A DNA stretch of 64,000 nucleotides, taken from positions 1 through 64,000 of the forward strand of contig NZ_WYDS01000010.1 of the NCBI RefSeq assembly GCF_009914765.1, read 5' to 3'. Shown piece by piece: positions 15,458-51,263 of this stretch (the first letter of the stretch is position 1; every line of letters starts with the position of its first letter). The notes beneath the pieces are model-generated. The model had not been told where the DNA came from and did no database searches. It saw nothing but the letters and a program-made list of their open reading frames with translations. The DNA is from Halodesulfovibrio sp. MK-HDV (GTDB taxonomy: Bacteria > Desulfobacterota > Desulfovibrionia > Desulfovibrionales > Desulfovibrionaceae). A program made the translations under genes and the position numbers.

Positions 15458-15479
15458 AACCTTCCAAAGGAGGCGTATC

Positions 15480-15749
15480 ATGGCCAGACAGCGCTATATA
15501 GTAACGGGGAAAGTGCAAGGGGTAGGTTTCCGATATTGGACACACCACACAGCTTTTTCGTTAGGCCTGCATGGCTGGGTACGTAATCTTCCTGACGGGA
15601 GTATTGAGTTGGTTGCAGACGGTGACATTTCCACCCTGCAACAGTTTGAAGAAGAACTTTGGCAAGGGCCCATAAAGGGTCAGGTTGCCACGGTTACACC
15701 GTGTGATACAAATTTACGGGAACCACTCTCAGGGTTTTCCATGCATTAA
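15480..15749 (+). CDS. acyP: Acylphosphatase
   Basis: Small (89 residues) hydrolase of carboxyl-phosphate bonds. The catalytic Arg (R18 in GKVQGVGFRYW) and Asn (N36 in WVRNLPDGS) are present. A near-perfect AAAGGAGG precedes ATG 15480. It lies between radC and lon. Confidence 0.95.
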   Translation: MARQRYIVTGKVQGVGFRYWTHHTAFSLGLHGWVRNLPDGSIELVADGDISTLQQFEEELWQGPIKGQVATVTPCDTNLREPLSGFSMH

Positions 15750-15819
15750 TTGGATTTTACTGCCAGGGCTATGGCAGAAGAAAATATAACACCGTTTCTG
15801 CCCAGCTTGGAGGGCACCG

Positions 15820-35093: not shown

Positions 35094-35102
35094 AAGTTCA
35101 TA

Positions 35103-35206
35103 CTCATGCAGAGGACACGAGGGATTTGGCCCATCGACTGTCCGGCAACCTGTACTACTAAATAGTGCAAGGTGCTAAGCCAACCGCACACTGCGGAAAC
35201 CATGAG
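35103..35206 (+). promoter_or_regulatory. SAM-I (S-box) riboswitch aptamer
   Basis: P1 is CTCATG (35103-35108) with CATGAG (35201-35206). Between them lie the S-box core elements in order: GAGGGATTTGGCCC, then TCCGGCAACC, then AAGGTGCTAAGCC. These match the conserved S-box positions I know (GAGGGA..GGCCC, CCGGCAACC, AGGTGCTAA). GAGGCTG (35204-35210) overlaps the 3' side of P1 and can pair instead with CAGCCTC (35223-35229), the classic antiterminator. High SAM should therefore switch transcription off. Confidence 0.85.
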
Positions 35207-35223
35207 GCTGTTTGTACACGTTC

Positions 35224-35252: not shown

Positions 35253-35338
35253 ATTACTTCGGGCGGATTTATAGCGATTGCGCGCCCGGTCAAAAATACA
35301 GCTAATAGCTTTCCGGATTCCGGATAAGGAGATTGTTT

Positions 35339-35608
35339 ATGTTAGCCTTCTTAACACAATTTGCAGAAGCCCCAAAAGCAAATATAGTGTTTTTGTACCA
35401 TGATTCCACCGTGCAACCTGCCCCTGCGCAGTACGCCGACCCATTGGAACTCTTAGGCGACATACGAATGCTTCATCTTACGCAGGCACAAAAAAACGAA
35501 CTGCGGGAATTACTTCGTAGCGATCTCGTCACAAGTGACGAGCGTGAAATATGGCGCCACAGAGCGCTAAGGAAAAACTTGATCCATTCTCTTGGTCGAA
35601 TAGTTTAA
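35339..35608 (+). CDS. SAM-riboswitch-controlled small protein of unknown function
   Basis: An 89-residue soluble protein of unrecognised family. AAGGAG (35326-35331) lies 7 nt before ATG 35339. It has no cysteine and only two methionines. The first 20 residues are hydrophobic and mixed (MLAFLTQF..IVFLY); the second half is helical and charged (LTQAQKNELRELLRSD). It is the only gene between the riboswitch attenuator and the next terminator, so it is probably tied to sulfur-amino-acid or SAM status. A further hairpin CGGGCG/CGCCCG (35260-35288) lies in its leader. Confidence 0.65.
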   Translation: MLAFLTQFAEAPKANIVFLYHDSTVQPAPAQYADPLELLGDIRMLHLTQAQKNELRELLRSDLVTSDEREIWRHRALRKNLIHSLGRIV

Positions 35609-36260: not shown

Positions 36261-36305
36261 AAATATATAGATGAAACGGCGACGACCTAGAAGGGTTATA
36301 TACGG

Positions 36306-36320
36306 AAAAAAGTGTAAATA
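36306..36320 (+). repeat. Island-end repeat L1
   Basis: AAAAAAGTGTAAATA, direct orientation; outermost copy on the left. Confidence 0.6.
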
Positions 36321-36366
36321 GCATTGTATGTGTAGGTAATATAAAGATTTTTTTTGACAGCTCTAC

Positions 36367-36382
36367 AAAAAGTGTAAATAAA
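36367..36382 (+). repeat. Island-end repeat L2
   Basis: AAAAAGTGTAAATAAA, direct orientation, 61 nt from L1. It is preceded by TTGACA (36354-36359), so TAAATA could also act as a -10 box. Confidence 0.6.
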
Positions 36383-36399
36383 CTTCGCCTATTGACTAC

Positions 36400-36414
36400 T
36401 TTATTTACACTTTT
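36400..36414 (-). repeat. Island-end repeat L3 (inverted)
   Basis: TTTATTTACACTTTT, inverted relative to L2; together they form an interrupted palindrome at the left end. Confidence 0.6.
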
Positions 36415-36460
36415 GAACTAAAAAAACAACCCACGCCACACATCCAAACAACACTGTCAG

Positions 36461-38935
36461 CTAATTTTCTTCCGCTACATTTAATAACACTTCCTGACGA
36501 TGGATATATCCAACACCATCTTCTTCAAGCTTATTATGTAATTCAGGATTAAAACTTAATTGATCATCATCTAAAATTTGAAAGTAGTTTGAATATTCCG
36601 TTAAAAGCATTTCGGCAAACGTTCTACTAAAGCCATTTCTTATCAAAGAAATCACTTTAGGGTCATTAGTCCCGTATTTAGCAAGCAAGTAGAAGTCCTC
36701 ATCAAGCATCTCAAGCTCATTTAAAATTTCAACAAATCTAAACAAGTCATGTTCTAAGAAGTCTTCTTCTTCCTTAATTCTAACAATTGCAAAGTTTACT
36801 TTCTCAACAAAACTACTACTTCCAATTCGTGTAAAATGTTCTAAATATCCCTCCGGCTGTGTTGTATCACCCCATTTCCCTACAAACACTAACGCTGTTG
36901 GAGGAAGTTGGTTCCAATAGTCGATCATCTGTCTAATCATTCTTGCATATGAATACCTTCTGATCTTCCAATCAAGAAACATTGCATAAAACATCTGGGC
37001 TTCTTCTGCTTTTAAGCGCACTAGGTTGCGATTCTTAGATTGGTCTGTCTCTAGGTGAGCAATAAACGCTTGGTAAATTGCCCGCATCAATAGTCTAGAA
37101 TTATCAATCAACCCGAATTCATCAGAAATATTATCCAAGGCGCTCTGAATAGCATTCTCACAATCTAGTGGATCAAGTTCTGAAATATTATTTTCGAGTA
37201 ATTTTAACCCAGCGTCAGTACAAACACGCGGCAAATCAGGGTTGCCTGATATTCCTTCTTCCATATTTTCAAGACGTGTCATCACACGCTCAAATTCATC
37301 TCTATTGTCATCGGTTATCTGAACTGGATCTAATAATATATTTTCCGGTTCATCTTTTATCGTTTTAGTAACGTGCATCACTTCAGTAACAAACGAATTA
37401 AGATTCGCTTTTACTCTTCCATATTGATCACTGCCAACAACATGAATTTGCGGTTGAAGCTTTTCGATAGCTTTAATTTCATTTGACCTAAAAATATCCC
37501 CAAAACGATTTACCCTTCCGATTAAATTCTTAAACTGAGAAGGTGACATCTTACGAATACCTTTACGGATATCTAGCAAAAACATTCTTTCAATAGGAAG
37601 ATTTACCCCTTCTAACAAAGTAGATGTTGATACCAAATACTTAATATCGTCACAGCTTGTATATAAGTATTCGACATAGTTCCGAACAGCCTCAGGCATT
37701 GAGCCATGATGATAAAGAACGCCTTTTTTGAGGCAACGCAAAAGTAAATATTTTTTATGCATTGCTTCACCAATTTCAGAAATTGCCTTTTCTGCAGTTG
37801 ATGAATTTATTTTAGGAAGATTTTTTGCAAGCCGTCGTGCAAAATCTTGAGCATCTTTGGGTTTATTAAGATAAACAATATTTTTATTTTTTGAATAATC
37901 AATTACATGTTCTAGATAATTTTCAGCATCATTATCATGTTCAAAAAAGTGATTAAAAAAATGATCGTAATAAGAAAAAGATTTTTCAAACGCTCTATAG
38001 TCAGCCACAAATATCTTTTCGGACTTAACATATTCACTTATTTTATAGTTTAAAGATTCAAAGTTAGAATCTTTAAATGACAAACTAGAAGGCTCTTGAA
38101 GAAAAGGGGTTAAAAACTTAAATGCTGTATCCGAATTACGATAAGAAAGAATTTTAATAGTCGAAGTCAACAATATCTCACGGTCGCCTGCAGCAAGCAT
38201 GTTGTGCGCTTCATCTACAAAGACCAAGTCAAAAGCCATTTTTTTATCTGCAGTAAGGATTCTACTTAATCTTTCTTGTGTTAAGACATAAACAGATTCG
38301 TAATCATCCACTCTATGCATTTCTGGATGTGAAACAATTCGCTTAACCCAATCGATTTTTTCATCAAGAATTCTTTTTCGTGTCTGTGCTAAAAGTGCCT
38401 TTGAAGGGACAACAATGCAGACCCTACTGCCCCGTGATTGTTTAATCCCAGACACAATTAATTCAGATTTCCCATACGAAGTTGGAGCGACAATGATAGC
38501 TGTATTTCTAATATTTGAATCAAAAAAATTGTTTAAACGGTTCTGTTGCTCAGTAAACACAACCCCTTTTCTTCGATAATTTTCTATAAACCCATCAACT
38601 ACTGTAGGCAAAAAAAGACCTGCTTCCATAGACATAAAGTCTTCAAGGGTCCTAAGTTGATTAGTAACCGGATATAGTCCTAAATTAATCGATAAATCAT
38701 AAAGAGGGGTAAAATCTTGAGTTTTGTTAGAATATTCAAGAGCCATTCTATACCCAATCTGGCGCAAGTGTTGATCTTCTACATTACTAAACAAAGCTAT
38801 TATAGATAAAATTTTTTCCCGGTTAGCTAAGTTTAATTCTTCATTTGAAAATAACTGACTATAAACATCTAGAAATTCAACATATTTATTTTTAAAACTT
38901 TTATGCTTGAGAGAACGTAAGGTCAACTTCGACAT
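36461..38935 (-). CDS. hamB: Hachiman defence helicase HamB
   Basis: An 824-residue superfamily 2 helicase: Q-like FTEQQNRL (128-134), Walker A APTSYGKS (150-157), VFVDEAHN (DEAH 241-244), motif V STSTLLEGVNLP (436-447) and motif VI LIGRVNRFGD (471-480). The C-terminal 350 residues match no domain I recognise. It starts 1 nt after the hamA stop (TGATATG), the standard HamA-HamB pair. In Hachiman, HamB senses DNA structure and releases the HamA nuclease. The A/T-rich codon use differs from the chromosome. Confidence 0.87.
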   Translation of the reverse strand: MSKLTLRSLKHKSFKNKYVEFLDVYSQLFSNEELNLANREKILSIIALFSNVEDQHLRQIGYRMALEYSNKTQDFTPLYDLSINLGLYPVTNQLRTLEDFMSMEAGLFLPTVVDGFIENYRRKGVVFTEQQNRLNNFFDSNIRNTAIIVAPTSYGKSELIVSGIKQSRGSRVCIVVPSKALLAQTRKRILDEKIDWVKRIVSHPEMHRVDDYESVYVLTQERLSRILTADKKMAFDLVFVDEAHNMLAAGDREILLTSTIKILSYRNSDTAFKFLTPFLQEPSSLSFKDSNFESLNYKISEYVKSEKIFVADYRAFEKSFSYYDHFFNHFFEHDNDAENYLEHVIDYSKNKNIVYLNKPKDAQDFARRLAKNLPKINSSTAEKAISEIGEAMHKKYLLLRCLKKGVLYHHGSMPEAVRNYVEYLYTSCDDIKYLVSTSTLLEGVNLPIERMFLLDIRKGIRKMSPSQFKNLIGRVNRFGDIFRSNEIKAIEKLQPQIHVVGSDQYGRVKANLNSFVTEVMHVTKTIKDEPENILLDPVQITDDNRDEFERVMTRLENMEEGISGNPDLPRVCTDAGLKLLENNISELDPLDCENAIQSALDNISDEFGLIDNSRLLMRAIYQAFIAHLETDQSKNRNLVRLKAEEAQMFYAMFLDWKIRRYSYARMIRQMIDYWNQLPPTALVFVGKWGDTTQPEGYLEHFTRIGSSSFVEKVNFAIVRIKEEEDFLEHDLFRFVEILNELEMLDEDFYLLAKYGTNDPKVISLIRNGFSRTFAEMLLTEYSNYFQILDDDQLSFNPELHNKLEEDGVGYIHRQEVLLNVAEEN

Positions 38936-38936
38936 A

Positions 38937-39770
38937 TCAATTCCCTTTCGCTGTTAATTCAGATTGTAAAAAATCTACAACCTTAGAAAAGGTACTTTTC
39001 TGAATATTAACAACAATTGTATCGCTAAATGTTCCTGCTTTTTTCAAATCAGCAAGGCATTTTTTGGCAGGCTTGTTAGTAATTTTGTTTTTCAGTGATT
39101 CAAAAATATTTGAAACAAGAATAACGCAATGATCTTTACTGGTAGCTTGTCCTGTAGTTGTAGCCTTTCCACTATCTTTTAAAATACGTACAAGCGCTTT
39201 TTTGAAATCTTTGTCTTCTGCTACAGCATTACGCACTGAGCTAACGGCATTGTACCAATACATCTTTTCTTGTTCATTAAGACGCTTCTTTAAGTCATTT
39301 TTTGCTAACCCTAAAAATTCGGCAGTTGTCTGATCAACATTTTTATCTTTATGTAAAGTTCCAGACTTTACTTCTGTTATCCAAACAGACCCTGCAGAGG
39401 GTTTGGCCAAAATAAGATCAAACCCTTTCTTAATTGATTTTTCTTCTTGGTTAAAAAAAGCAGAAACGACATCAAAATCACCAAGGACTTCAGTCAAAAT
39501 AATATGAGCTAACAACTCACCGACAATCCCTTTCTGCGTTGCTTCCGACTTCTTGTTATAACGATCCAAAAAAGACTCTATTGTACTGTAATAACTATAA
39601 ATATCACCATAGTCTTCAGGGTCAACATCTTCCACCACAGCTGCCCCGTGACAAATTGAAGAAAAATTTTTTCGTATCAGATCTTTTATTTCATCTGACA
39701 ACTCAACAACATGACATACAGAATAGTCATCTTGTTTTTCTAATGATATACCAGAAAACAATTCTTTCAT
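38937..39770 (-). CDS. hamA: Hachiman defence nuclease HamA (DUF1837)
   Basis: A 277-residue protein with a PD-(D/E)xK nuclease core: E85 in VGELLAHIIL, D118 in KKGFDLIL and E133-V-K135 in VWITEVKSG. This fits DUF1837/HamA, which degrades DNA once HamB is triggered by phage. I start at ATG 39770 with GGGG 5 nt upstream; an in-frame TTG at 39797 has no Shine-Dalgarno. It is the first gene of a two-gene unit. Confidence 0.85.
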   Translation of the reverse strand: MKELFSGISLEKQDDYSVCHVVELSDEIKDLIRKNFSSICHGAAVVEDVDPEDYGDIYSYYSTIESFLDRYNKKSEATQKGIVGELLAHIILTEVLGDFDVVSAFFNQEEKSIKKGFDLILAKPSAGSVWITEVKSGTLHKDKNVDQTTAEFLGLAKNDLKKRLNEQEKMYWYNAVSSVRNAVAEDKDFKKALVRILKDSGKATTTGQATSKDHCVILVSNIFESLKNKITNKPAKKCLADLKKAGTFSDTIVVNIQKSTFSKVVDFLQSELTAKGN

Positions 39771-40245
39771 GGTTGCCCCAAAGTCTATTCTATTCAAGTA
39801 ATTGATCTTTTACTATCACCCCTTAGTGACTACTCACTTCCGCTACTAGAATTTGGCTTAATTGTCTAACATACTTAAATATAGTTTTATTTTGATCAAA
39901 CAGATTTAAATACAACAAAAGTAACCACCTGTTTTTACCAAGGCGGATCATTATTTTACTGCTTATGGCAATCAACTAGGCATAGTAAAAAACGATTGCA
40001 ATACGCCTGACAGAAGTCCTATGTACTTAAATTACAATAGGTAACCCCGTTACTTCCAAAGCTTTTTATATCAAACATTGAATATTCTTTATTTCTACTA
40101 CGCAACCAAGCGCACCAGCCCCCTCTCCATAACCTTGAAATATCATGATATTTTATTCACTACAAATACCACATGAAGATCTCACAGTATTAAGTAAGAT
40201 CATATACAACAGCCGTTAACCGAATTCAGATAATGCCTCGATCGG
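39771..40245. other. Intergenic stretch between hamA and the DUF3644 gene
   Basis: About 475 nt, A/T-rich, with short stop-broken frames only. It must hold the divergent promoters of hamAB and the DUF3644 gene. I see no terminator-like hairpin or repeat of the island-end type. Confidence 0.5.
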
Positions 40246-40274
40246 TTGACTATGAAAATCGGATAGTATCTATT
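40246..40274 (+). promoter_or_regulatory. Candidate promoter of the DUF3644 gene
   Basis: TTGACT (40246-40251), then TATCTA (spacer 15) or TCTATT (spacer 17), ending about 65 nt before ATG 40341. Confidence 0.4.
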
Positions 40275-40340
40275 CGGATTGAAATTTGGATGTGTAAACA
40301 ACATCAATACCCCTAAAATACAGTAGAAGTGAGCACTTGC

Positions 40341-41459
40341 ATGGAAATCGATCTCCCCATTACACTTAGAAAAGGCAAAGCAAAAAGTATTCTTGAGTCA
40401 TCAATTGATTCTGCTCTACTTGCCATCGAAATCTACAACAAGCCGAGAACAGCATTCAGAAGTGAAGGCTATATAACGATGATGGTCATAGCTTGGACAA
40501 AACTGTTTCATGCATACTTTCAAGCTACGATTGGGGATAAATATTACTACAAAGAATCAACTGGAAGATATAAAAAGAAAAATGGTGAAAAACTTGCTTG
40601 GGAACTAACAACCTGCATCAACCAATACGATAAATTAAACGACACAGACAATCTTCCTGAACCTGTTGTTAAGAACATCAAGTTCTTCATTGCAATCCGC
40701 AATAAAATTGAACATCGTCATATCAATAAGAAAGAAGTTGATGTTTCAATTTTTGGAGAATGCCAATCTTTTTTATTCAACTATGAAAGCTTACTCATCA
40801 AATTATTTGGTGAGGATCATGCTCTTCACGAATCATTGGTGTTTGCACTCCAACTGTCACACATCAGACAAGGCAGTCAAATTAAAGCGAACAAATCAGC
40901 ATTGGCAAAAGATGTGCAAGACATCAAAAAATTCATTGATGACTATAGGACATCGCTATCTGAAGAAGTTTTCCATGCACCTGAATTTAGCATTAAACTG
41001 ATGGCAATTCCTAAGGTTAGCAATACCAACAGAGGGGATGTTGCAATTGAATTTATTCCGCTAAGTCAGCTAGCAGAAGAAGATCGCAAAATGTGTGAAT
41101 CAATTGGAGCTTTGATAAAAGATAAACGGGTCACTGTTGAAGGGCGCAACATTGGCAAGTTTAGACCTGGAGCAGTCTGTACCAATGTAAACGAAAAACT
41201 TGGTTCAAACGATTTTAAAGTCCATATTCATACTTGGCTAACAAGAATTTTTAAGATTCGCCCTAAAGCTGGTGCAGAAGACCCTTTTGATACAAATACT
41301 AAGTATTGCCATTACGATGAAGCACATAATGACTATCTATACAATGAAGACTGGGTAGATTTTATTGTAAATTTCTTTGCTGAAAATAAGATGACAGTGG
41401 ATCAGCTACGAGAAACTAATTCTAAAGATGAAGCCCTGCTCATTAAAGATTACATTTAA
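40341..41459 (+). CDS. DUF3644/HEPN-like protein, probable defence gene
   Basis: A 372-residue soluble protein. The N-terminal part ILESSIDSALLAIEIYNKP...EGYITMMVIAWTKLFHA matches my memory of DUF3644. It also has R120-N-K-I-E-H125, an Rx4H motif in a helical context typical of HEPN ribonucleases. The C-terminal part has HIHTWLTRIFKIRP and a His/Cys-rich KYCHYDEAH. ATG 40341 is chosen over GTG 40329 on start strength alone. It is divergent from hamAB and upstream of the structured RNA region. An RNase toxin or abortive-infection role is inferred. Confidence 0.68.
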   Translation: MEIDLPITLRKGKAKSILESSIDSALLAIEIYNKPRTAFRSEGYITMMVIAWTKLFHAYFQATIGDKYYYKESTGRYKKKNGEKLAWELTTCINQYDKLNDTDNLPEPVVKNIKFFIAIRNKIEHRHINKKEVDVSIFGECQSFLFNYESLLIKLFGEDHALHESLVFALQLSHIRQGSQIKANKSALAKDVQDIKKFIDDYRTSLSEEVFHAPEFSIKLMAIPKVSNTNRGDVAIEFIPLSQLAEEDRKMCESIGALIKDKRVTVEGRNIGKFRPGAVCTNVNEKLGSNDFKVHIHTWLTRIFKIRPKAGAEDPFDTNTKYCHYDEAHNDYLYNEDWVDFIVNFFAENKMTVDQLRETNSKDEALLIKDYI

Positions 41460-41530
41460 TGTAAGCTTTCCCGTCGAGCAGACAGTCTCAAATTGAAGTT
41501 TTCATCATTGTCAATTTAAACATATAGCAG

Positions 41531-41557
41531 TTGACATGTTGCCACGATTTTTATAAA
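41531..41557 (+). promoter_or_regulatory. Candidate promoter of the structured RNA
   Basis: Consensus TTGACA (41531-41536), 15-nt spacer, TATAAA (41552-41557), about 70 nt after the DUF3644 stop and just before the first hairpin. Confidence 0.5.
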
Positions 41558-41570
41558 AAAATTTCCCTAC

Positions 41571-42018
41571 TAAAATGATTAGTTACAATCATTTTAAAAC
41601 ATTTTGGGAGGTGCCCCATGTCAACATTTTTGACATCCGCCTCCGTGGCCAGCGAACCTAAAATAGCTGGTATTCGATAAGGTGGGGGAAACAAGAGCAA
41701 CGAATGAAAGTCTGATCAAACTTTCTGTCTTGTGAGCCAACATCATGACTTAGAGGTTGTAGCTAGACTAGCTACACAAAAGCAGCTTGGGAGGAAGGAA
41801 TGACCCCGCCGTTAATAGTTACGGAGAGAGATGGTCGCACCCGCAATGTGACGGGCAAGCCGAGGTTCCGCAGTCAGCCCCAAGCACACCTCAAGAATTG
41901 TATGTTCTCATAAAACAAATTCACCAGTAATTATTAGGACTTGCTGGCCCCGAAGGGGATAGGTCAGGGGTAGCCGTCGAAACACTTTCGAGTGTCACGG
42001 AACTATCTATAATAAAAA
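41571..42018 (+). ncRNA. Candidate large structured noncoding RNA (possibly HEARO/omega-RNA-like)
   Basis: No reading frame of note, but many nested pairings. TAAAATGATT/AATCATTTTA (41571-41596) comes first. ATGTCAA/TTGACAT follows, enclosed by GGAGG/CCTCC. Then come CCAGC/GCTGG, GTAGCTA-GAC-TAGCTAC, and a domain closed by GCTTGGG/CCCAAGC that contains CCGT/ACGG and CCCG/CGGG. Last are CCCC-GAA-GGGG and CACT-TTCG-AGTG within CCGT/ACGG and GATAG/CTATC. Unpaired conserved-looking strings include GGTGGGGGAAACA and GACTTAGAGG. Size and layout remind me of HEARO/omega-RNA, but no IscB-type gene is present. The strand is set by the promoter. Confidence 0.6.
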
Positions 42019-42050
42019 AAAGGGCGGCCATTTGGTCGCCCTTTCCTTTA
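42014..42050. terminator. Bidirectional terminator between structured RNA and mobility operon
   Basis: 11-bp stem AAAGGGCGGCC/GGTCGCCCTTT (one G-U) with an ATTT loop. T8 follows on the minus strand and TTTCCTTTA on the plus strand. It ends the recombinase operon from the right and probably the RNA from the left. The stretch 42051-42237 holds nothing I recognise. Confidence 0.82.
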
Positions 42051-42237
42051 TCCAAAACTACTGCCGCAGCTTTCTGTTTTTTTATGAATCAAATATTGAT
42101 TTACCCTAATAGCCCAAAGAACATAGAAAAGACCTTCTTGCGATTTTTTACAGCAAGGTAGTAGGGGCATTTTTTTAATTAATCTCGTTAAACTTCTGCT
42201 GTGCGATCATCACACCAAACTCAGCGACAGGCTATAT

Positions 42238-42585
42238 CTAGTGTACTTCTTGACGACTAAGCACAAAATCGACAGCGCTGGCACCTGCAGCTTTAGCGCG
42301 TACTGTAATTTTTGCTGTTGGGTCAAATTTTACGAAGTCTGCTAATTTCTTGAAATCAACCAAATCGTAGAATGTTACGCCTTCTTTAACTTTATGATAG
42401 TCCTGAACTCGGTTTCCCGTGTATTCAGATTGATATGTAACCGTAACTGGTTCACTAATGTTCATTTTTTCTATACCGGCATCTTCGGCAGCGCTTATCA
42501 TGGCTGAAAACATCGAAGGGCCGTTGAGTTTGGAAAAATGTATGGAATAAGCTGATTCAATTTTAACAATTCGCGTACTGGACAT
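42238..42585 (-). CDS. Unknown small protein ending the mobility operon
   Basis: A 115-residue soluble protein of unrecognised family. AAGGAGG lies 8 nt before ATG 42585 (GTG 42591 rejected). Mixed alpha/beta content with VTVTYQSEYTGNR and KITVRAKAAGASAVDFVL. It is last in the leftward operon, about 108 nt after the helicase stop, with its own strong ribosome site, so it may be expressed at a higher level. Confidence 0.65.
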   Translation of the reverse strand: MSSTRIVKIESAYSIHFSKLNGPSMFSAMISAAEDAGIEKMNISEPVTVTYQSEYTGNRVQDYHKVKEGVTFYDLVDFKKLADFVKFDPTAKITVRAKAAGASAVDFVLSRQEVH

Positions 42586-42693
42586 ATTCACAACCTCCTT
42601 TATTAAAACGATTTCTTATTTAATATTTTGTTTTACAAAAAACACACACGAGAACAATGTATTAATTTCAAATAGTTACACAAAACTTAGTCA

Positions 42694-44796
42694 TTAAACA
42701 ACAGCTCCCACATGTCGCTGTTGTGTGAATGCAGGTGCTCGTACTGCCGTTTCAAATGCTTCCCGACCCCCGACAAACACGACCTGTTCGACACCACGGG
42801 TCAGTGCGGTGTAGATCAATGCGTGATCCAAAATCCTAGATTGCGTTACAACAACGGCAACCCTATCAAACTGGCTCCCTTGCGCTTTATGTACCGAAAT
42901 TGCGTAGGCTAATTCTAGTCGTTCTGCTGCTTCTGCTGCGGGAATGGCGTGTACTGTCCCTTCAAAATCAACGTGGATTTTACCCTCGTCGACATCAACA
43001 ACACGTCCCAGAGTACCGTTCATCAGCCCCCGTTCATAATCGTTAACGAGATGGATGACCGGTTCGCCTATTGCCACTGGATAGTCAGGTTCATTCTTTG
43101 CACTTGATTCATGAAAAAATGCATTCACAGCATTAATGCCGGCTGTCCCCATTCGGATCGCAGATAACACCTGCCATTCATCACCGTCCCAGTCGTTTGC
43201 CAAACGCTGCAGGACAGATGTTACCCCGTCGTTGTCGCATTCAATAAATGATATTCCCGTCTGTGTTCCTGCATAGGGCGAAATGTCGGGAACTATGTGT
43301 TCACGAATGGATGCGGCAATAAGTGGAATCCCTGTTTCTGCTGCTTGACGGTGTACTTCTGTCAATTCTACACGAGGAACCACAGCACTGGATGCCAGTT
43401 GATGGAAAACTAATCCAAACCCGATTGGCGGCAGCTGTGCTGCATCACCGATTAGTAGAATCCTGACATCCATCGGCGCATGCCGTAATATCTGAAACAT
43501 GGATGTCAGATCCAGCATCGATGCCTCATCAATAACAATCAGACTGCCGGAAGCGACTTCCAGCTGTCCCGTCCGTACAAGATGTAAAAATTTAGCAATG
43601 GTCATAGCATCATGCCCAGACGCTTCACCCATTCGTTTAGCAGCTCTTCCCGCCAATGCCATTTGCACGACGTCAATCCGCATTTTGCTGGCAACAGAAT
43701 GAATTACCCGCAGCACTGTGGTTTTCCCGACCCCAGCACCGCCAGTCAGTACACTGAATGGTGCTTTAAACACCATGTTAACTGCTGCCCGTTGTTGTGC
43801 ATTTAATGCGAAGCCTTGGTGCTGTTCATTTTCAGCAATCGCGGTGCTTATGAACGCATCATGGGCAGATGCGGTTGGGAACAGGCCCCCTTGTGTCATG
43901 CGTTGATCACGTTTATGATTCAGCATGGAATGGATGCGTTCAGAAATGCGTTGTTCCAACGAAGCAGCCCCCACAGGCTGGAATCCATTATCATCGCCTA
44001 CAATAGCGTTTTCAGACGTCGCAAGGGCGATTGCAGTGCGAACGTCGTTATCGGTCACCCAACGTCCCAGAAGGGCTGGTAAACGTTCATGCAGGATTTG
44101 TATGGGGGTCATCGTATGACCATCATGCAGTCGTGAATAGAGCACTGCTTCTACAGCGCCTACCAAACGGCGAGTATCGTCTAATTGCAGTCCCATTTTC
44201 GTAGCAGCGGCATCGGTTCGTGTCCATGATGTAAACGCCAGCATGTAATAGGGATTACGTTCCAACATCTGAATTGCTTGTGTTCCCCAGACACGGCGGA
44301 GCTTGTTTGCCAGCCGGATATCAAATCCGTGCTCGTCCAGAAATGCAACCACTGCGGCTTCCGCTTGATTTTCCGCCCATACACTGACTAGCTGACTAGC
44401 CATGGATGCCGACAATACACTGGATAATCGTTCTGCATCCCCTGCATTCAGCAGATCCACAAGCTGGTCACCGAACGCATCATAGATGGTTTGCGCCTTG
44501 CCTATGCCGATGCCTGAAAAGCTAGGATGGTCTGCCAAATAGCGGACAAGTAACCGCCCCTTGGGCACCACGTAGCGGGCATGCTGCGCATACAACTGCC
44601 ACCCGTACTTGGAATGTTCTCGAAATTTTCCCGCAATATCCCATAGTTCTCCAACAACGGGAGGACGAGGCATGATGTTTTTTCCTGCAACAACACGAAC
44701 GCTGTTCCCATCTGGGCTGCGCCCAGAAAAAATGACAGCGCCATCAGGTGCCAGATACGTTAGCGTGCTGACGGTCAGTGTTGTGGAATCAGGCAT
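42694..44796 (-). CDS. RecD/RecD2-like SF1B helicase
   Basis: A 700-residue protein. The N-terminal part resembles the RecD2 OB and helix-hairpin-helix region (HPSFSGIGIGKAQTIYDAFG). Walker A is GGAGVGKTT, motif II VIDEASMLD, motif III GDAAQLPPIG, and the UvrD-like motif near the end is AISVHKAQGSQFD with ALTRG. It probably processes DNA ends or unwinds DNA during element transfer or repair. Its start ATGCCTGA overlaps the stop of the preceding gene, so translation is coupled to the mobility module. Confidence 0.85.
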   Translation of the reverse strand: MPDSTTLTVSTLTYLAPDGAVIFSGRSPDGNSVRVVAGKNIMPRPPVVGELWDIAGKFREHSKYGWQLYAQHARYVVPKGRLLVRYLADHPSFSGIGIGKAQTIYDAFGDQLVDLLNAGDAERLSSVLSASMASQLVSVWAENQAEAAVVAFLDEHGFDIRLANKLRRVWGTQAIQMLERNPYYMLAFTSWTRTDAAATKMGLQLDDTRRLVGAVEAVLYSRLHDGHTMTPIQILHERLPALLGRWVTDNDVRTAIALATSENAIVGDDNGFQPVGAASLEQRISERIHSMLNHKRDQRMTQGGLFPTASAHDAFISTAIAENEQHQGFALNAQQRAAVNMVFKAPFSVLTGGAGVGKTTVLRVIHSVASKMRIDVVQMALAGRAAKRMGEASGHDAMTIAKFLHLVRTGQLEVASGSLIVIDEASMLDLTSMFQILRHAPMDVRILLIGDAAQLPPIGFGLVFHQLASSAVVPRVELTEVHRQAAETGIPLIAASIREHIVPDISPYAGTQTGISFIECDNDGVTSVLQRLANDWDGDEWQVLSAIRMGTAGINAVNAFFHESSAKNEPDYPVAIGEPVIHLVNDYERGLMNGTLGRVVDVDEGKIHVDFEGTVHAIPAAEAAERLELAYAISVHKAQGSQFDRVAVVVTQSRILDHALIYTALTRGVEQVVFVGGREAFETAVRAPAFTQQRHVGAVV

Positions 44797-45253
44797 GGCG
44801 TGGTGGTTCCGGGATGCGTCGGCCTGTTTGAATTGTCATGTCCTCACGTCCCATTTGCTGACGTAGGGCAACTAACTGTTGTCGAAGTTCTGCGTTTTCA
44901 GCGACCAGTACGGCATTTTTTTGTTCCAGCTGGATGATGCGACGCTCCATTTGGCGCTGTTTGGTCGGATGTTCTGTTGCAGCACCGGATTTGACAGCCC
45001 CAGTAGACGATTTGGATGACGCTGTTTTAACGGCGGGGAGACTGGGGATACCCCGTGATTTTCGGGCGTCCTCCAATAGCGTTTTCATCCGTGGGTTCTT
45101 GTATAACGACTGGCGCGGTACTCCAGCATCAGCAGCAATTTTAGACATGTTAAGCATACCGTTAGAACCGACCGGCAGCTGGGTTGTTTCATTCAGATAC
45201 TGCTGCAATATGTGCATGTATTTTTGTCCGATTTCCTTACCGCTTTGTCCCAT
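44789..45253 (-). CDS. HTH/coiled-coil accessory protein 2 (TnpC-like by layout)
   Basis: A 154-residue protein. The N-terminal half has an HTH-like segment (SKIAADAGVPRQSLYKNPRMK), a Ser/Thr/Ala linker and a leucine-rich coiled coil (ERRIIQLEQKNAVLVAENAE and on). Size, position after the recombinases and HTH-plus-coil layout recall Tn554 TnpC and GmtX-type accessory proteins. GGAGGG precedes ATG 45253. It overlaps the helicase gene by 8 nt. DNA binding is inferred. Confidence 0.65.
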   Translation of the reverse strand: MGQSGKEIGQKYMHILQQYLNETTQLPVGSNGMLNMSKIAADAGVPRQSLYKNPRMKTLLEDARKSRGIPSLPAVKTASSKSSTGAVKSGAATEHPTKQRQMERRIIQLEQKNAVLVAENAELRQQLVALRQQMGREDMTIQTGRRIPEPPRHA

Positions 45254-45283
45254 TATGCCCTCCGATGATCACATCACGTATTA

Positions 45284-45730
45284 CTATGATGCTTCTGGTG
45301 TAGCATCACGATCAACTTCTGCTAATGAACGATTCAAATATGCTTCATCCAGCCCTTTTATAGACGCATTGGTTGACCAAACTATAAACTGCAATAGCAG
45401 TCGTTCATTTTCTGCCGCCAAACGTTCATTTTCTGCAGTCAAGTTCTTATTACGATCTATTAAAGCCTGCACTTCTTTGGGCGTAAAACTTTCAGGACTT
45501 CGTTCTGTACGTGGTCGTGTTCTGGTTAATTGGTTTCTTCGATCTTGATACGCTTTTTGTATACGGAGATGGTTGCTTAAAGTTTGGCGGGAGTAGACCC
45601 GTCCCGTTCGTTTTTCTATTTTTTCTGCAAACAAAGCCCACGTTATTTTTCCTTGCCATCCATCTAATATTTGAACGATTTCTTCTATCATTTCATCGTC
45701 TAAATTTCGTCCTCTTTTCTTCCTTCGCAT
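45284..45730 (-). CDS. HTH/coiled-coil accessory protein 1
   Basis: A 148-residue protein with a basic start (MRRKKRGRN), a putative HTH (ALFAEKIEKRTGRVYSRQTLSNHL) and a coiled coil (LIDRNKNLTAENERLAAENE and on). It has the same architecture as the next gene, suggesting a paralogous or heterodimer pair. It lies 15 nt after the third recombinase. DNA binding at the element ends is inferred. Confidence 0.65.
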   Translation of the reverse strand: MRRKKRGRNLDDEMIEEIVQILDGWQGKITWALFAEKIEKRTGRVYSRQTLSNHLRIQKAYQDRRNQLTRTRPRTERSPESFTPKEVQALIDRNKNLTAENERLAAENERLLLQFIVWSTNASIKGLDEAYLNRSLAEVDRDATPEAS

Positions 45731-45745
45731 CTGCGCATTCCCCTC

Positions 45746-47833
45746 TTACATTGCTAGTGATCGTCTAAGCGCTTTTTCTTCTTTTTTTTTCTTTTTTCTT
45801 TTTGCAGTCAATTTTTCATTAGCAGCTTGCCCAATTCGTGACGCTGGTCTGATATCGCGCAACTGAATTACACTACCTGTAGGGATATTAGGGTCATCCA
45901 TTATATCACAAAGTTTACGCAAAAGGTTGGTAGTATGTGCATGATGTTCATACCAGCGATCAATTTTATCGTTACGCTTTTTGGAGTCACTTTTTCGTCG
46001 TTCTACTTCTGCAGTTACCTGCTCTAGCAGTGCTTCTTGTTCTTCCAACTGTTGTCGAATACGTGCTGTTTTTGTACTATCCCCTTTAAGGCAAACATGT
46101 TCATTACAATTAATACAATCCAGATACTTATCACATGTTGACATAGTGTAATCATGAACGCAGTACCCAAAGTCTGTCGTATGTGCTGTCGTGATTTGCA
46201 GCTGTGCAAAATCGTCACGCTTTATCAAGTTTTTCTGCTTTGGTGCTGCAGTAATAGGGGCTAAACCGGTATCTGTGTTCCCTACAGTATTTCTAACCAT
46301 TTTTACAATATCTTTTGATGTGCTATGATCGTAATCATCATTTTGGCGCAAATCGACCCGCCCGCTCCATTTGGCAATATCCAGTTCACCCACACCAGCT
46401 TGTTGCGATTTCGTATTCAAATAATGTCGAAATTCGTGAGTATGGACAGTCATTGGACTACCATCTATTTCTGTTAATCCGAATTCCTTAAAAATGGAGA
46501 TCACACTGGTTTTTTTTGCCCCTGTGCGTCCTGCAAGCCCATCATCCATTTGCCCCATGGTTATCGGTTCTATTAAGCAGCTATAGTTCTGGTACTTTTT
46601 AGCAAACATATCTTTGGGAGCAACCATTAATGCGTCGTGCAAAAGCAGGTTTTTCGTGTTGTCAGCATACGGGAAATGTATAGGGAGCATTTTTAGAACT
46701 GCCTGTTCAATACTAGAAAAAGAAAAATGATGTGCGTTACCTACTTTTTTATAAGGTATCTTTCTAGTTTTACACCACTCTTGGGCTGATTTTGCTTTTT
46801 TTCGCCCCCCCCATAGCACTAAATTTATTTCTGCCGATGACAGCCATTCCTGATTGCGTAAATAAGCAAGATCCGCTGGAAGAAAAATTTCGTTGGGGTT
46901 TTCATAATACCACTTGGCTATATCACGGGCAGGCTGGGTGATTCTTCGGATTCTTTTCATCGCCTCACGTGCTACATCAACCAGTACAGTAACACGCCAT
47001 TTAATCATAGGTCTGGCACCCTTTGACGGCACCCACCTATGTCCGTAGGCTTCATCTTCGCCGTCAGAAAAAGTGACCTCGCAATCTTGATGCAGCGTCA
47101 AAACCTCACTAATGCGATCAGGTGCACTACACATGAGGACAGCAATTGATGCGATTAAAATGTGCCTGTCTTCTGTTGCCGTTCGAAAAATATGTGGCAA
47201 TGCGCCTAATAACAATTCTTGAGACGGCATTTTTTCTTGACGCCGTTTTTCCGCTTCTGCACCACACCGACCCATTGGATCCTTTTGTCGATTAATAGGA
47301 TTTTTCCAGTTTAATGATACCATCACTAACCATTTTTCATCTAAAAAATCGGCAATTTTTTGTAGTTGTCCCCCCGTTTTGTACGCCACACTTTTGCTAT
47401 AATGCTGTTTTGTTAACTGTGCAGCCCTATTCAGAATGCCTGCATCAATTTGAATAATGGGGATTTCGATATCATTTTCGGTCAATGCTATTTCTAGCAT
47501 CCGCAATGCTTCCAGTTGGCGTGCTAAATTTTGCACTGGTCTGCGCGTAAAAATGTATCGCAGATATGCTTTGGCAAATGGTTGGAAAAAAACAGGAAAT
47601 GGTTGTTTGTCTTTATTTTTTGTAGCTGCTGTTTGTTTTGTGAAGAAAATTCTATGCCTCTTACTCCCCATCCCTTTTACAGGCAAGAATTCTGTAATAT
47701 CCCACACATAGTCATCGAATTGCAAATCTTCACCAAACGCAGTGAGATCATTACGGGCAAATGCGATAAAATCATTCAGATTTCGTTGTGCGTCTAATTC
47801 GTGCTGGGGCGTGAATATTAGGATTTTAGCCAT
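45746..47833 (-). CDS. Tyrosine recombinase 3 of the trio (large, Cys-rich C-terminus)
   Basis: A 695-residue integrase. Catalytic set: Arg in SAPDRISEVLTL, HEFRH (HxxR), a Trp/His-box equivalent in AKWSGR, and Tyr in NDDYDHST. The C-terminal part has a cysteine cluster (YCVHDYTMSTCDKYLDCINC) that could bind zinc, then a Lys-rich tail. ATG 47833 (GGGAG 6-7 nt upstream) overlaps the stop of recombinase 2 as ATGGCTAA. The size resembles TnpB/GmtZ-type large recombinases. Confidence 0.85.
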   Translation of the reverse strand: MAKILIFTPQHELDAQRNLNDFIAFARNDLTAFGEDLQFDDYVWDITEFLPVKGMGSKRHRIFFTKQTAATKNKDKQPFPVFFQPFAKAYLRYIFTRRPVQNLARQLEALRMLEIALTENDIEIPIIQIDAGILNRAAQLTKQHYSKSVAYKTGGQLQKIADFLDEKWLVMVSLNWKNPINRQKDPMGRCGAEAEKRRQEKMPSQELLLGALPHIFRTATEDRHILIASIAVLMCSAPDRISEVLTLHQDCEVTFSDGEDEAYGHRWVPSKGARPMIKWRVTVLVDVAREAMKRIRRITQPARDIAKWYYENPNEIFLPADLAYLRNQEWLSSAEINLVLWGGRKKAKSAQEWCKTRKIPYKKVGNAHHFSFSSIEQAVLKMLPIHFPYADNTKNLLLHDALMVAPKDMFAKKYQNYSCLIEPITMGQMDDGLAGRTGAKKTSVISIFKEFGLTEIDGSPMTVHTHEFRHYLNTKSQQAGVGELDIAKWSGRVDLRQNDDYDHSTSKDIVKMVRNTVGNTDTGLAPITAAPKQKNLIKRDDFAQLQITTAHTTDFGYCVHDYTMSTCDKYLDCINCNEHVCLKGDSTKTARIRQQLEEQEALLEQVTAEVERRKSDSKKRNDKIDRWYEHHAHTTNLLRKLCDIMDDPNIPTGSVIQLRDIRPASRIGQAANEKLTAKRKKKKKEEKALRRSLAM

Positions 47834-49379
47834 CAAGTGCTCCCATTTCGTCGTTTTGCTGTTTGCACATGGCGACCACTTCCGCCACCGCTTTTATCGT
47901 TAGATCGTGGACTGACGCAATGCGATTGCCTAGTTCCCCCAATCGTTCACGTTCGGCTATCAATTTTTCTAAAATCTGTTCATGTGGGCCATCTAGCCAC
48001 GCATTAAACAACACACAGGTATAACAACCTAATGGTACTGAAAATGAACAAAAACTATGCTGTCCACATGTTCCAACAACAGCAAAGTCTTGTGTATATT
48101 GAGGGGCGATGATCTGTTGCTTGTCACCACCATCAGGTGTGTTCCGTCCATCAACCAGTTTACCTGCAAATGCCTGCGCAATCGGTGCTAGGTGCAATGC
48201 CAACTTTTTGTCTATCCTTTTAATGATGGCGGGTGTCGCTTCAACATAGATGCCAGCATTTTGCGTATCCGTATGATCTAACAGCTCCGCAATGACCAGC
48301 TCCCCCCACCCTTCATTAGCTGCGACTGTCCCTACGGTACGACGAAAACGGGTAGCTGCTATATGAATAGGGTCACCTGTACGTTCGGAACGTACATTCA
48401 ATGGTTGAAAGATCTTCTGCAGACGTTCTGTTACCCGACTATTTTCCATATGAAAGGCGAATAGACCAGACGTAAGCGTTTTCTTTTGACGTTCTGGAAA
48501 CAACGGTAATTGCTCTACATCGTCAACCAATGAACCAAAATCGTTTTTCACATCTTGTACATAGTTCCATAAAAGTCTGCCAATTTCTGGGTCTTTAAAA
48601 ATTCGTTCGGCAAATTTAGTCCGAGCACGGGTGCGTTTTTTTGCAGACGGGATACGTAACAGATATTCCAGAGAACCATCTGTTTTTTCGATCAATTTAA
48701 CATCGCAGACCTTGAGCATCACGACTTGGGCAGGGCGTAGGCCAAAAAACATAACAATAATGCACAACAAAAAATCTTCGGTCGTTACTTTGCCTGTAGT
48801 ATATCCGCGTTCTAATGTAGACGACAACGCACTGCGTTCAAGATGGGTGAATGGTCCTTCTGTCAGATGATGGGTTGCAACGGCAGTTCCTTTAATATTT
48901 CCAGACAACTTCAATTCGTTTAGAACGGCAATAGCATTATCTGTAATACCTATGCCGCTTAGCTTATACCATCGTTTAAAAAACCCTCTTAATCGCCCCA
49001 GTTGATATTCCTTCTGCCTCGTGAGTGTCGCACGGTAGTTCAATATATGAACATCAGTAATTTCTGATAGCTGTTGCCCGTCGGAAACAGTGGACAAAAA
49101 GTGTTTTAAACTCGAAAAGTTATTACCTAGAGTGCTTGGCGATTGATATTCTGCACACCATACCAGTACGAGCTTTAAACCAAGGACAAAATCTGCGGTC
49201 ACGTCTTTCAAGGAAAGAAAGTTCAAATGTATTTTTTTCCCAGCATCTATATATGACCAAACGTCATTTCGTGGACAAAATAAGGCTCCGTTTTTAGTTG
49301 TCACAATTTCAGGTAACAGTTCGTCAGCATCGTTGATCTGTGTGCTGTCATGCAAAGAGCGTTCACTATTTGTCCTCAT
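47826..49379 (-). CDS. Tyrosine recombinase 2 of the trio (altered HxxR motif)
   Basis: A 517-residue integrase. It has an N-terminal SAM-like DNA-binding region, Arg I in FGLRPAQVVML, AATRFRRTVGT where HxxR is expected (the His is replaced by Thr or Arg), LDHTDTQNAGIY with the candidate Tyr, and a C-terminal cysteine set (CGQHSFC...GCYTC). The altered motif suggests reduced or partner-dependent catalysis. It overlaps recombinase 1 by 14 nt. Confidence 0.82.
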   Translation of the reverse strand: MRTNSERSLHDSTQINDADELLPEIVTTKNGALFCPRNDVWSYIDAGKKIHLNFLSLKDVTADFVLGLKLVLVWCAEYQSPSTLGNNFSSLKHFLSTVSDGQQLSEITDVHILNYRATLTRQKEYQLGRLRGFFKRWYKLSGIGITDNAIAVLNELKLSGNIKGTAVATHHLTEGPFTHLERSALSSTLERGYTTGKVTTEDFLLCIIVMFFGLRPAQVVMLKVCDVKLIEKTDGSLEYLLRIPSAKKRTRARTKFAERIFKDPEIGRLLWNYVQDVKNDFGSLVDDVEQLPLFPERQKKTLTSGLFAFHMENSRVTERLQKIFQPLNVRSERTGDPIHIAATRFRRTVGTVAANEGWGELVIAELLDHTDTQNAGIYVEATPAIIKRIDKKLALHLAPIAQAFAGKLVDGRNTPDGGDKQQIIAPQYTQDFAVVGTCGQHSFCSFSVPLGCYTCVLFNAWLDGPHEQILEKLIAERERLGELGNRIASVHDLTIKAVAEVVAMCKQQNDEMGALDG

Positions 49380-50619
49380 CTTTTACCACCTTGAAGTTAT
49401 ATTGATCCTGAACGGTTAATGAGGCTTCTTTACCTAGCTTCTTCGTTTTTTTTTGTGTGTAGTGTTCCGTCATTTTAGATGAACGCCGCCATCCGTTTTC
49501 TATACACAGCATGCGTTCTATCGTCGCCTCGGAATGACCCTTTTTATACATAATTTCAGCTAGGTTAGTAGAATATGTATGCCTGCAGATATGTCCGGTC
49601 AGTTCTTTGGGTAGCTGATCGATTTTTTTGCGCAAAACTATGAAAATATCGTTATATGAAGTCGCGGCTAACGGTCTGCCTGTTGTAGATGAAATGAATA
49701 TATAAGGGTGGGATTCGGTACCGGCGACCTTATTTCTAATATCTATAACAAAATCATACAGCAACTTGACCAAATCGGTCGTGAGCGCCTTTTCGCGTGC
49801 TTTAGTTTTTGTCTTTGGCTGATGTAGCCTAGGATCTTCGGGATCATCGGGGCGACGTGCAACAAGCAGCGATTCATCTTGAAAATTCAAATCATCAATC
49901 TTTAGCCCCAACAATTCCCCACGTCGTATCCCTGTACGAATTAATACTTGAATTATTACAGCATTTCGCCAGCGCACCACATAGCTCTTCCATGGATTAT
50001 GCGGAGAATCTGGGTCAGTTATATTATACAGAAATTGAATTACATCGGGATCTAACGCCATTTGCGAATCAACTGTACCACGGTCAGTTACCATCGGAAC
50101 TTGCGCTTCTAGATTGTTCAAAACCCTTGTCTGATTTCGTCGCAGCCGATTGCGGATCTTCGCATCCAAATTATGGTTTCTGATGCCTAGTTCAATTGCC
50201 CATCTTAAAAAACGACGAATTGTCTTCAGACGATTAGCAGTTGTTGCAGATTCGACAGTTAGATTAGTGTCCCTATATGTATCTAAAAAATGCACGTTCT
50301 TTTTTCGTGTCTTTTTACGTGTTCCTTTAAATGATTGTTGGCAATATCTGCCCAGACCAGCAATTTCATCAAGGACAAATAGTTTCCCGCTCCAAACACG
50401 TTGCATCACATCAATGTTTGATTCAGAAAAATAATCCAAAAGCAATTTTATTTCACGCAACGCTCTGGCAATACTTTCAGAAGCGTGTCCCCGTTGTCGT
50501 AGCATGGTGACAGCGTATAGATTAGGATAAAATTCAGGTCGTCCTGTAATATGATTTAGCAAAACAGGAAGTCGTTCACCGTTTGGAAACCGTAGCGTCT
50601 TAACTTTTAATTTGCTCAT
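49366..50619 (-). CDS. Tyrosine recombinase 1 of the trio
   Basis: A 417-residue integrase, first gene of the mobility operon. Complete catalytic set: Arg in RTGIRRGELLGL, HICRH (HxxR) and Tyr in MTEHYTQ. The N-terminal core-binding domain is at about 25-160. No Shine-Dalgarno precedes ATG 50619: the island-end repeat (50621-50637) lies directly in front, so initiation may be weak or linked to protein binding at that repeat. Confidence 0.88.
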   Translation of the reverse strand: MSKLKVKTLRFPNGERLPVLLNHITGRPEFYPNLYAVTMLRQRGHASESIARALREIKLLLDYFSESNIDVMQRVWSGKLFVLDEIAGLGRYCQQSFKGTRKKTRKKNVHFLDTYRDTNLTVESATTANRLKTIRRFLRWAIELGIRNHNLDAKIRNRLRRNQTRVLNNLEAQVPMVTDRGTVDSQMALDPDVIQFLYNITDPDSPHNPWKSYVVRWRNAVIIQVLIRTGIRRGELLGLKIDDLNFQDESLLVARRPDDPEDPRLHQPKTKTKAREKALTTDLVKLLYDFVIDIRNKVAGTESHPYIFISSTTGRPLAATSYNDIFIVLRKKIDQLPKELTGHICRHTYSTNLAEIMYKKGHSEATIERMLCIENGWRRSSKMTEHYTQKKTKKLGKEASLTVQDQYNFKVVKDEDK

Positions 50620-50620
50620 A

Positions 50621-50637
50621 TTTATTTACACTTTTTT
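50621..50637 (-). repeat. Island-end repeat R1 (inverted), overlapping recombinase 1 leader
   Basis: TTTATTTACACTTTTTT, inverted relative to L1/L2, immediately upstream of the recombinase start. Confidence 0.6.
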
Positions 50638-50672
50638 TTACGTGCGACTGGCAAGTTGGGGACATTGTGCCC

Positions 50673-50717: not shown

Positions 50718-50750
50718 TTATATTTATTTACAGTCTTAACTGTACGTATA

Positions 50751-51263
50751 TCAGAAAGGTACGTCGTCCATTCCACTTGCTTCGGATGGGAATGCCGGAC
50801 CAAGGTCTTCATTACCGGAATCATACTGCTGCTTTTGTTGCTGCGGCTGGAAATTATTGTTGTTGTTCTGCTGCGGACGCGGAGCGTTATTCTGCTGGTA
50901 GGAACGACGTTCGCCGCCGCCCTGCTGCATGGAATCACCCTTGCGATCGAGGAACTGCACTCTCTGTGCTTTAATTTCCGTAGTATACCGGGTCTGACTC
51001 TGCTGATCCTGCCACTGGCGAGTCTGAAGTCCGCCCTCAACATACACAAGGCTTCCTTTGCCAAGGTAGTTAGCGCAGTTTTCAGCCACACGCTGGAAGA
51101 CAACCACTCGGTGCCATTCAGTGCGTTCCTGCTTGTTGCCTTCACGGTCAGTGTAGGATTCGTCTGTCGCTACATTGAAGTTAGCGATAGGCGTACCATT
51201 AGCCGCGTAACGCAACTCAGGGTCTGCACCAAGACGACCGATGATCATCACTTTATTCAGCAT
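50751..51263 (-). CDS. ssb: Single-stranded DNA-binding protein
   Basis: A 170-residue SSB: an OB fold at 1-110 ([39 protein letters not shown]), a disordered Gln/Asn/Gly-rich linker, and the acidic C-terminal tip MDDVPF that binds partner proteins. AAGGAG lies 7 nt before ATG 51263. It follows the carboxylase cluster by 36 nt and may be partly co-transcribed. Confidence 0.96.

Follow-up and report, generated by a model that had tools for sequence, protein, structure and literature searches.

A candidate large structured RNA among the cargo of a defence-gene transposon in Halodesulfovibrio sp. MK-HDV

Introduction

Large orphan RNAs of bacteria such as GOLLD, ROOL and OLE are long and heavily paired, and their function is poorly understood. 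According to PMC12286853, ROOL RNAs are often phage- or prophage-borne. HEARO or omega-RNAs, which belong to IscB and IsrB, are likewise large folded RNAs. Among mobile elements, the Gamma-Mobile-Trio elements are described in PMC12715929 as carriers of defence cargo.

Here, we analysed a block at positions 41531-42050 of a 64,000-nt stretch of the Halodesulfovibrio sp. MK-HDV genome (the window), which plausibly represents a large structured non-coding RNA, as supported by its predicted long-range fold and its elevated GC content. The candidate resembles GOLLD, ROOL and OLE in being long, heavily paired and of poorly understood function. It differs from them in that Rfam yields nothing for it up to E 10 and our searches gave no homologue, hence no conserved structure, and it is shorter than the ROOL example of 659 nt in PMC12286853. 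With HEARO/omega-RNA it shares a similar size range, judged by the 343-nt example given there (PMC12286853); unlike these RNAs, it has no Rfam match, no IscB was found in the genome, and the ten neighbouring proteins scanned include none with an HNH or RuvC family.

Results

A gene-free, GC-rich block between convergent genes

The block lies in a 778-bp gap (41460-42237) bordered on the left by a rightward DUF3644 gene and on the right by a leftward gene for a protein of 117 amino acids.

40329..41459, plus strand: DUF3644 HEPN-family gene (PADLOC PDC-S19; PF12358 E 5.5e-55, PDLC04950 E 3.3e-139)
41563..42050, plus strand: candidate structured RNA, with long-range pairing and no coding match; both ends putative
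42238..42585, minus strand: convergent orphan gene, 115-117 aa, with a good ribosome-binding site

An earlier, sequence-only reading had described about 0.5 kb without genes, and this description held: among 16 ORFs of at least 20 aa overlapping 41470-42200, the longest has 49 aa. The longest stop-free runs within 41563-42050 (52 codons on the plus and 51 on the minus strand) were equalled or exceeded in 248 and 269 of 300 shuffles, respectively, and are shorter than the shuffle means, and therefore give no hint of coding. A six-frame Pfam scan of the translated gap (stops written as X), covering most of 41460-42237 with some frame ends trimmed, returned nothing above a family cut-off. Its sole row was PF14807 (E 0.066, under its cut-off), which also appeared under cut-off when a 47-aa ORF of the gap was scanned alone (E 0.0052). 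A decayed gene as the origin of the block was dropped on the basis of the six-frame scan.

Two small ORFs lie within the candidate RNA (41618-41680, 20 aa; 41800-41913, 37 aa), each following a GGGAGG-type ribosome-binding site, and could give it a coding role. Neither matched Pfam, and the 37-aa peptide had plasmid matches only, at E 6-8; as an explanation of the block they were dropped.

The GC content of the core (41600-41990) is 49.1%, compared with 30.0% and 36.9% in the flanks (41460-41599 and 42051-42237), 34.1% in the Hachiman genes and 36.3% in the DUF3644 gene. One other intergenic gap of the window, 15458-15819, is equally GC-rich (0.492).

Predicted fold and its comparison with chance

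The following helices were predicted.

41607..41644, plus strand: 5' hairpin GGAGGTG...CGCCTCC capped by ATGTCAA/TTGACAT (z -3.95 for 41600-41645)
41612-41617/41967-41972, plus strand: outermost long-range helix, mean pair probability 0.95
41647-41655/41941-41949, plus strand: core-closing helix 1, mean pair probability 0.99
41657-41661/41934-41938, plus strand: core-closing helix 2, mean pair probability 0.98
41666-41671/41923-41928, plus strand: core-closing helix 3, mean pair probability 0.98
41753-41757/41888-41892, plus strand: junction helix enclosing a hairpin and the GCTTGGG domain, mean pair probability 0.97
41758-41765/41769-41776, plus strand: hairpin within the junction, mean pair probability 0.94
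41785-41791/41879-41885, plus strand: GCTTGGG/CCCAAGC helix closing the domain 41785-41885, pair probability 0.98

The domain closed by GCTTGGG/CCCAAGC had already been proposed from the sequence and reappears here as a confident prediction; folded alone, it has a z of +0.54. The purine-rich string GACTTAGAGG, thought to be unpaired, fared worse, since half of it (GAGGT, 41753-41757) is predicted to pair with ACCTC with a probability of 0.97. The 5' hairpin and the outermost long-range helix compete with each other. CCAGC and GCTGG are repeated on either side of the core, so that a pair of local hairpins might form at the expense of the long helix, in the manner of a putative switch.

A perfect dyad, ATGTCAA-N5-TTGACAT, occupies 41618-41636, and a further TTGACAT occurs at the -35 box described below; on this strand, the 64 kb contain TTGACAT three times and ATGTCAA twice. 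The dyad may serve as an operator.

Compared with shuffles, the block 41531-42050, terminator included, has fold z-scores of -5.15 (plus strand) and -4.64 (minus strand); for 41563-42012, without the terminator, they are -4.21 and -4.16. The folding energy of the block by itself is not exceptional: among 182 stretches of 450 nt from the same window, each compared with 10 shuffles, seven (~4%) matched its energy excess on the plus strand and four on the minus strand. Scanned in windows of 150 nt, the block is conspicuous at its two ends only, and the inner windows are no outliers.

What is exceptional is confident long-range pairing. On its plus strand, the core 41596-41992 has 37 pairs with a probability >0.9 and a span >100 nt, a number equalled in none of 626 background windows and in one of 60 shuffles; these bounds were picked once the fold was known, and the regular grid window at 41601 likewise has 37. 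Confident pairs (>0.9) of any span number 60, which 92 of the 626 windows equal. On the minus strand, the core shows 27 confident long-range pairs (equalled by 20/626 windows), and this strand is the richer one over 41563-42050 (31 versus 25) and over the entire gap (55 versus 44), so that folding leaves the strand undecided.

Promoter, terminator and strand

Candidate promoter elements were read directly from the sequence, and a terminator-like hairpin was located at the right end of the block.

41531..41536, plus strand: TTGACA, perfect -35 box
41552-41557, plus strand: TATAAA, weak -10 candidate (15-nt spacer)
41554-41559, plus strand: TAAAAA, weak -10 candidate (17-nt spacer)
42019..42044, either strand: bidirectional terminator-like hairpin (-21.7 kcal/mol on the plus and -20.6 kcal/mol on the minus strand, over ~50 nt)

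The consensus TTGACA promoter and the strong terminator of the sequence-only reading were each found in part. The -35 box is perfect, whereas the -10 box is poor in both versions, and a sigma-70 scan of 40100-42800 listed no plus-strand promoter; each of its three sites is on the minus strand, to the left of 41387. The terminator stem is strong, yet it folds on both strands and was listed on neither in a terminator scan of the same region. Because the T run following it is longer on the minus strand, it may serve the convergent 117-aa gene. Within the block, that scan placed a terminator-like site at 41618-41605 on the minus strand. Two points make us prefer the plus strand: the -35 box, and the lack of any minus-strand promoter-like site right of 41387 in the sigma-70 scan.

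Searches for homologues

In a DNA search of its own genome the block matched only itself. Among 149 genomes, own genome included, five others matched, four of them on the terminator and one on the 27 nt immediately left of the -35 box. Plasmids yielded nothing but the terminator at E 0.01 and one 26-nt match at E 5, whose locus scored 7.7 bits; phages gave no match at E 0.01 and one at E 5, and E. coli genomes none at E 1. An exact 20-mer of the block occurred in none of 84,980 genomes.

We also searched with a covariance model built from this one sequence (R1). Its two genome sets overlap, include the own genome and were run under stricter filters; besides the own genome, two matched at E up to 1 among 297 genomes and four at E up to 0.1 among 395. 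The E-values of this model are unreliable, as 17 kb gave 142 matches up to E 10 with filters off. The best match (17.4 bits, G044) was rejected because it falls within a long ORF whose product, on reading, resembles a sensory protein, and two others were rejected as antisense to an ORF (L107) and, by reading, to a tRNA synthetase gene (L103); a fourth (L109) lies over two small ORFs only.

Pattern scans of viral contigs produced sets of 66, 21, 0, 1, 40 and 1 stretches. The 66 stretches had no nhmmer match at E 1, and the best BLAST value among the matches listed was E 0.018. R1 was run on nine of these 66 and on the sets of 21, 1, 40 and 1; its best matches, at 14.0 bits in L087 and L076, were rejected because they derive from 18 identical nucleotides around the pattern used for the scan. 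Thus, no convincing homologue was found in the own genome, the 149 genomes searched by DNA, the 297 and 395 searched with R1, plasmids, phages, E. coli or the viral pattern scans.

An orphan RNA gene or a spacer

The best reading of these results, which we hold tentatively, is an orphan gene for a structured RNA that stands alone and forms part of the cargo. It is favoured by the long-range pairs, found both in the chosen core and in the grid window at 41601, by the step in GC from flanks to core and by the lack of a coding signal. A related element in a congener, described below, carries different cargo at the equivalent place and lacks a match to the RNA, and DUF3644 relatives exist without the block. 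Against this stand the absence of a homologue, and so of covariation, the weak -10 box and a terminator that perhaps belongs to the opposite gene. Further points against it are the energy excess, matched by other stretches of the window, the total of confident pairs, matched by background windows, the minus strand's greater wealth of long-range pairs over 41563-42050 and the entire gap, the equally GC-rich gap at 15458-15819 and the choice of core bounds after folding.

The main rival, which we regard as rather unlikely, is an ordinary spacer between convergent genes that folds by accident and consists of the DUF3644 3' region and a bidirectional terminator, perhaps together with decayed sequence from an unspecified source. 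The unexceptional energy, the inconspicuous inner windows, the poor -10 box, a terminator usable by the 117-aa gene and the lack of a homologue all suit a spacer. Long-range pairing above that of all 626 background windows, the sharp GC block and the absence of a protein remnant above a family cut-off do not.

The neighbouring genes as possible partners

The DUF3644 protein encoded here and its two closest relatives share RNKIEH, which we take to be the HEPN motif. The RNA might regulate this protein or be its substrate, restraining the predicted RNase, either on the same transcript or from its own promoter. This explanation draws on the same orientation of the two, on the position of the block directly downstream and on a domain that carries this motif and is assigned to the HEPN superfamily in PMC3710099. 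The sequence-only reading had considered an RNA partner of DUF3644; to look for a fixed pair of the two, we searched 15 other DUF3644 loci with R1: L027-L034 from eight genomes, L134 from Thalassobacillus pellis, and L180-L185, which represent six of 29 plasmid and phage records with DUF3644. None had a convincing match (top scores 7.2 bits at L028 and, with filters off, 9.0 bits at L134), including the loci with the 70% (L027) and 53% (L134) identical proteins. Most of the other proteins are only 25-38% identical, so a rapidly changing RNA might escape and the test is a moderate one. The gene for the 70% identical protein is flanked by a tRNA gene on one side and an incomplete copy of it on the other, with no such block. 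From these loci, a fixed pair appears unlikely, and we rate a role in DUF3644 control as improbable. A scan of viral contigs with the DUF3644 protein gave nothing. The lone DUF3644 gene of L027 (5170-6810) resembles a very small tRNA-targeted island.

A single module of the RNA and the convergent 117-aa gene, with 3' ends overlapping at the shared terminator, is less probable still. The two are neighbours and both orphans in the searches made: searches of Pfam, PADLOC and NCBIfam placed the protein in no family over the E 0.01 threshold, and it has only its own copy in 149 genomes and no relative in plasmids, phages or viral contigs. However, they lie on opposite strands, neither has a second copy, and the predicted structure of the protein, with a mean pLDDT of 59.9 and its best fold match at E 0.018, is of too low quality to interpret.

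Comparison with known RNA families

An Rfam search of 41560-42012 yielded no family at E up to 10, including HEARO (RF02033), GOLLD, ROOL and group I/II introns, all suggested by the sequence-only reading, as well as OLE. With the terminator included, 20 sub-threshold matches appeared, all over the terminator hairpin, the best being MicX at 33.5 of 75 bits. The only gathering-level Rfam match in the window is a SAM riboswitch (35101-35208, plus strand); the next plus-strand ORF of at least 80 aa after it has 91 aa and a TTG start (35333-35608).

The idea, likewise raised from the sequence, of an omega-RNA working in trans with an IscB encoded at another place in the genome has next to no probability left. 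It offers only a comparable size, that of the 343-nt HEARO in PMC12286853, set against the empty Rfam search and the lack of an IscB (NF040563) match in the own genome, a draft 97.29% complete. In the same search, eight of 395 genomes exceeded the NF040563 cut-off and 293 matched at E <=0.001, most of the matches listed being short stretches under the cut-off. Among the ten neighbouring proteins, Pfam detected no HNH or RuvC family, in agreement with the sequence-only reading. Own-genome searches for RRXRR and HEARO were also empty, yet the controls of both were silent too, and we give them no weight.

Type III toxin-antitoxin RNAs consist of tandem repeats upstream of a toxin gene; we found no tandem repeat in 41460-42237, and the block lies downstream of the DUF3644 gene. 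As to retron RNA (msr-msd), no reverse transcriptase gene lies beside the block, and the single PF00078 match of the genome falls on contig C22, not on C10, which holds the window. That sole match (L110, G000 contig C22, 64626-65171) is a 485-aa ORF next to a 192-aa ORF that reads as deoxyribosyltransferase-like, and the locus is probably a retron, judged by its sequence. Two further ideas were dropped: a tRNA-like domain with a 7-bp stem, because ARAGORN finds no tRNA or tmRNA, and a reading of the 3' hairpin as domain V of a group II intron, because its bulge is on the wrong side by eye and Rfam gives no match.

The host mobile element and its cargo

The block is cargo of a tyrosine-recombinase transposon that carries defence genes and adjoins ssb.

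36290..50650, no strand assigned: host mobile element, ends approximate, placed by AAAGTGTAAATA repeats and the sister element

AAAGTGTAAATA or its complement occurs at 36309, 36369, 36402 and 50623. The defence genes are those for Hachiman HamB and HamA and the DUF3644 gene. Other ORFs are RecD2-like (a helicase) and VPA1267-like, both under cut-off, and HTH-like, and a 696-aa ORF has no clear family. Of two tyrosine recombinases, one is above the NF041502 cut-off. The element resembles Gamma-Mobile-Trio elements, whose cargo is described in PMC12715929, in its tyrosine recombinases, VPA1267-like ORF and defence cargo; its scores for GmtY (29.7 of 340 bits) and VPA1267 (46.1 of 90 bits) fall short of the curated cut-offs.

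A congener (G002) has a related element at the same ssb gene (L022, 2610-16891), and the two match at their left ends, on the ssb side and in their recombination genes. Its cargo, by eye, comprises a reverse transcriptase, a phosphoribosyltransferase-like ORF and a pair of an ATPase and an HNH-like ORF; the reverse transcriptase-like ORF lies at 15688-16728, preceded by a 242-bp gap. This element contains no match to the candidate RNA or to the 117-aa gene. This comparison of one pair of elements suggests that units of cargo may be swapped. The 3' end of ssb (50747-50812 in the window) is matched at 84-86% in three further genomes (L023, L025, L026), each of which also has, close by, a gene related to that of the 696-aa element protein, and may be a preferred insertion site.

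Discussion

Under the orphan-gene reading, for which we infer transcription, strand, ends and function, an RNA of ~450-490 nt would be transcribed from left to right, from near 41563 to the shared terminator. Its core domain would be closed by pairing of about 41612-41671 with 41923-41972, the junction and the GCTTGGG domain lying inside. The folded RNA would then act in trans, binding or titrating a phage or host factor, and would not be a guide for a neighbouring nuclease; action in trans is suggested by the fact that no dedicated protein gene was found travelling with the block. That it works as a decoy is in itself doubtful. Even less probable, in our estimate, is a new class of stand-alone antiphage RNA acting as decoy or sensor in infection. 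In such a module a folded RNA gene without a protein would itself be a unit of cargo, just as retrons and Hachiman systems are in elements of this type. Large orphan RNAs are a known kind in bacteria; a protein-free antiphage RNA module would be new.

If the block is a spacer only, it conveys a caution, because the energy-based sign of a structured RNA was matched by about one in 25 stretches of this window. The cargo of defence islands has, in our view, been searched mostly for proteins, and a protein-free RNA module would be missed in this way. The locus described here is a small, testable candidate for such protein-free RNA cargo.
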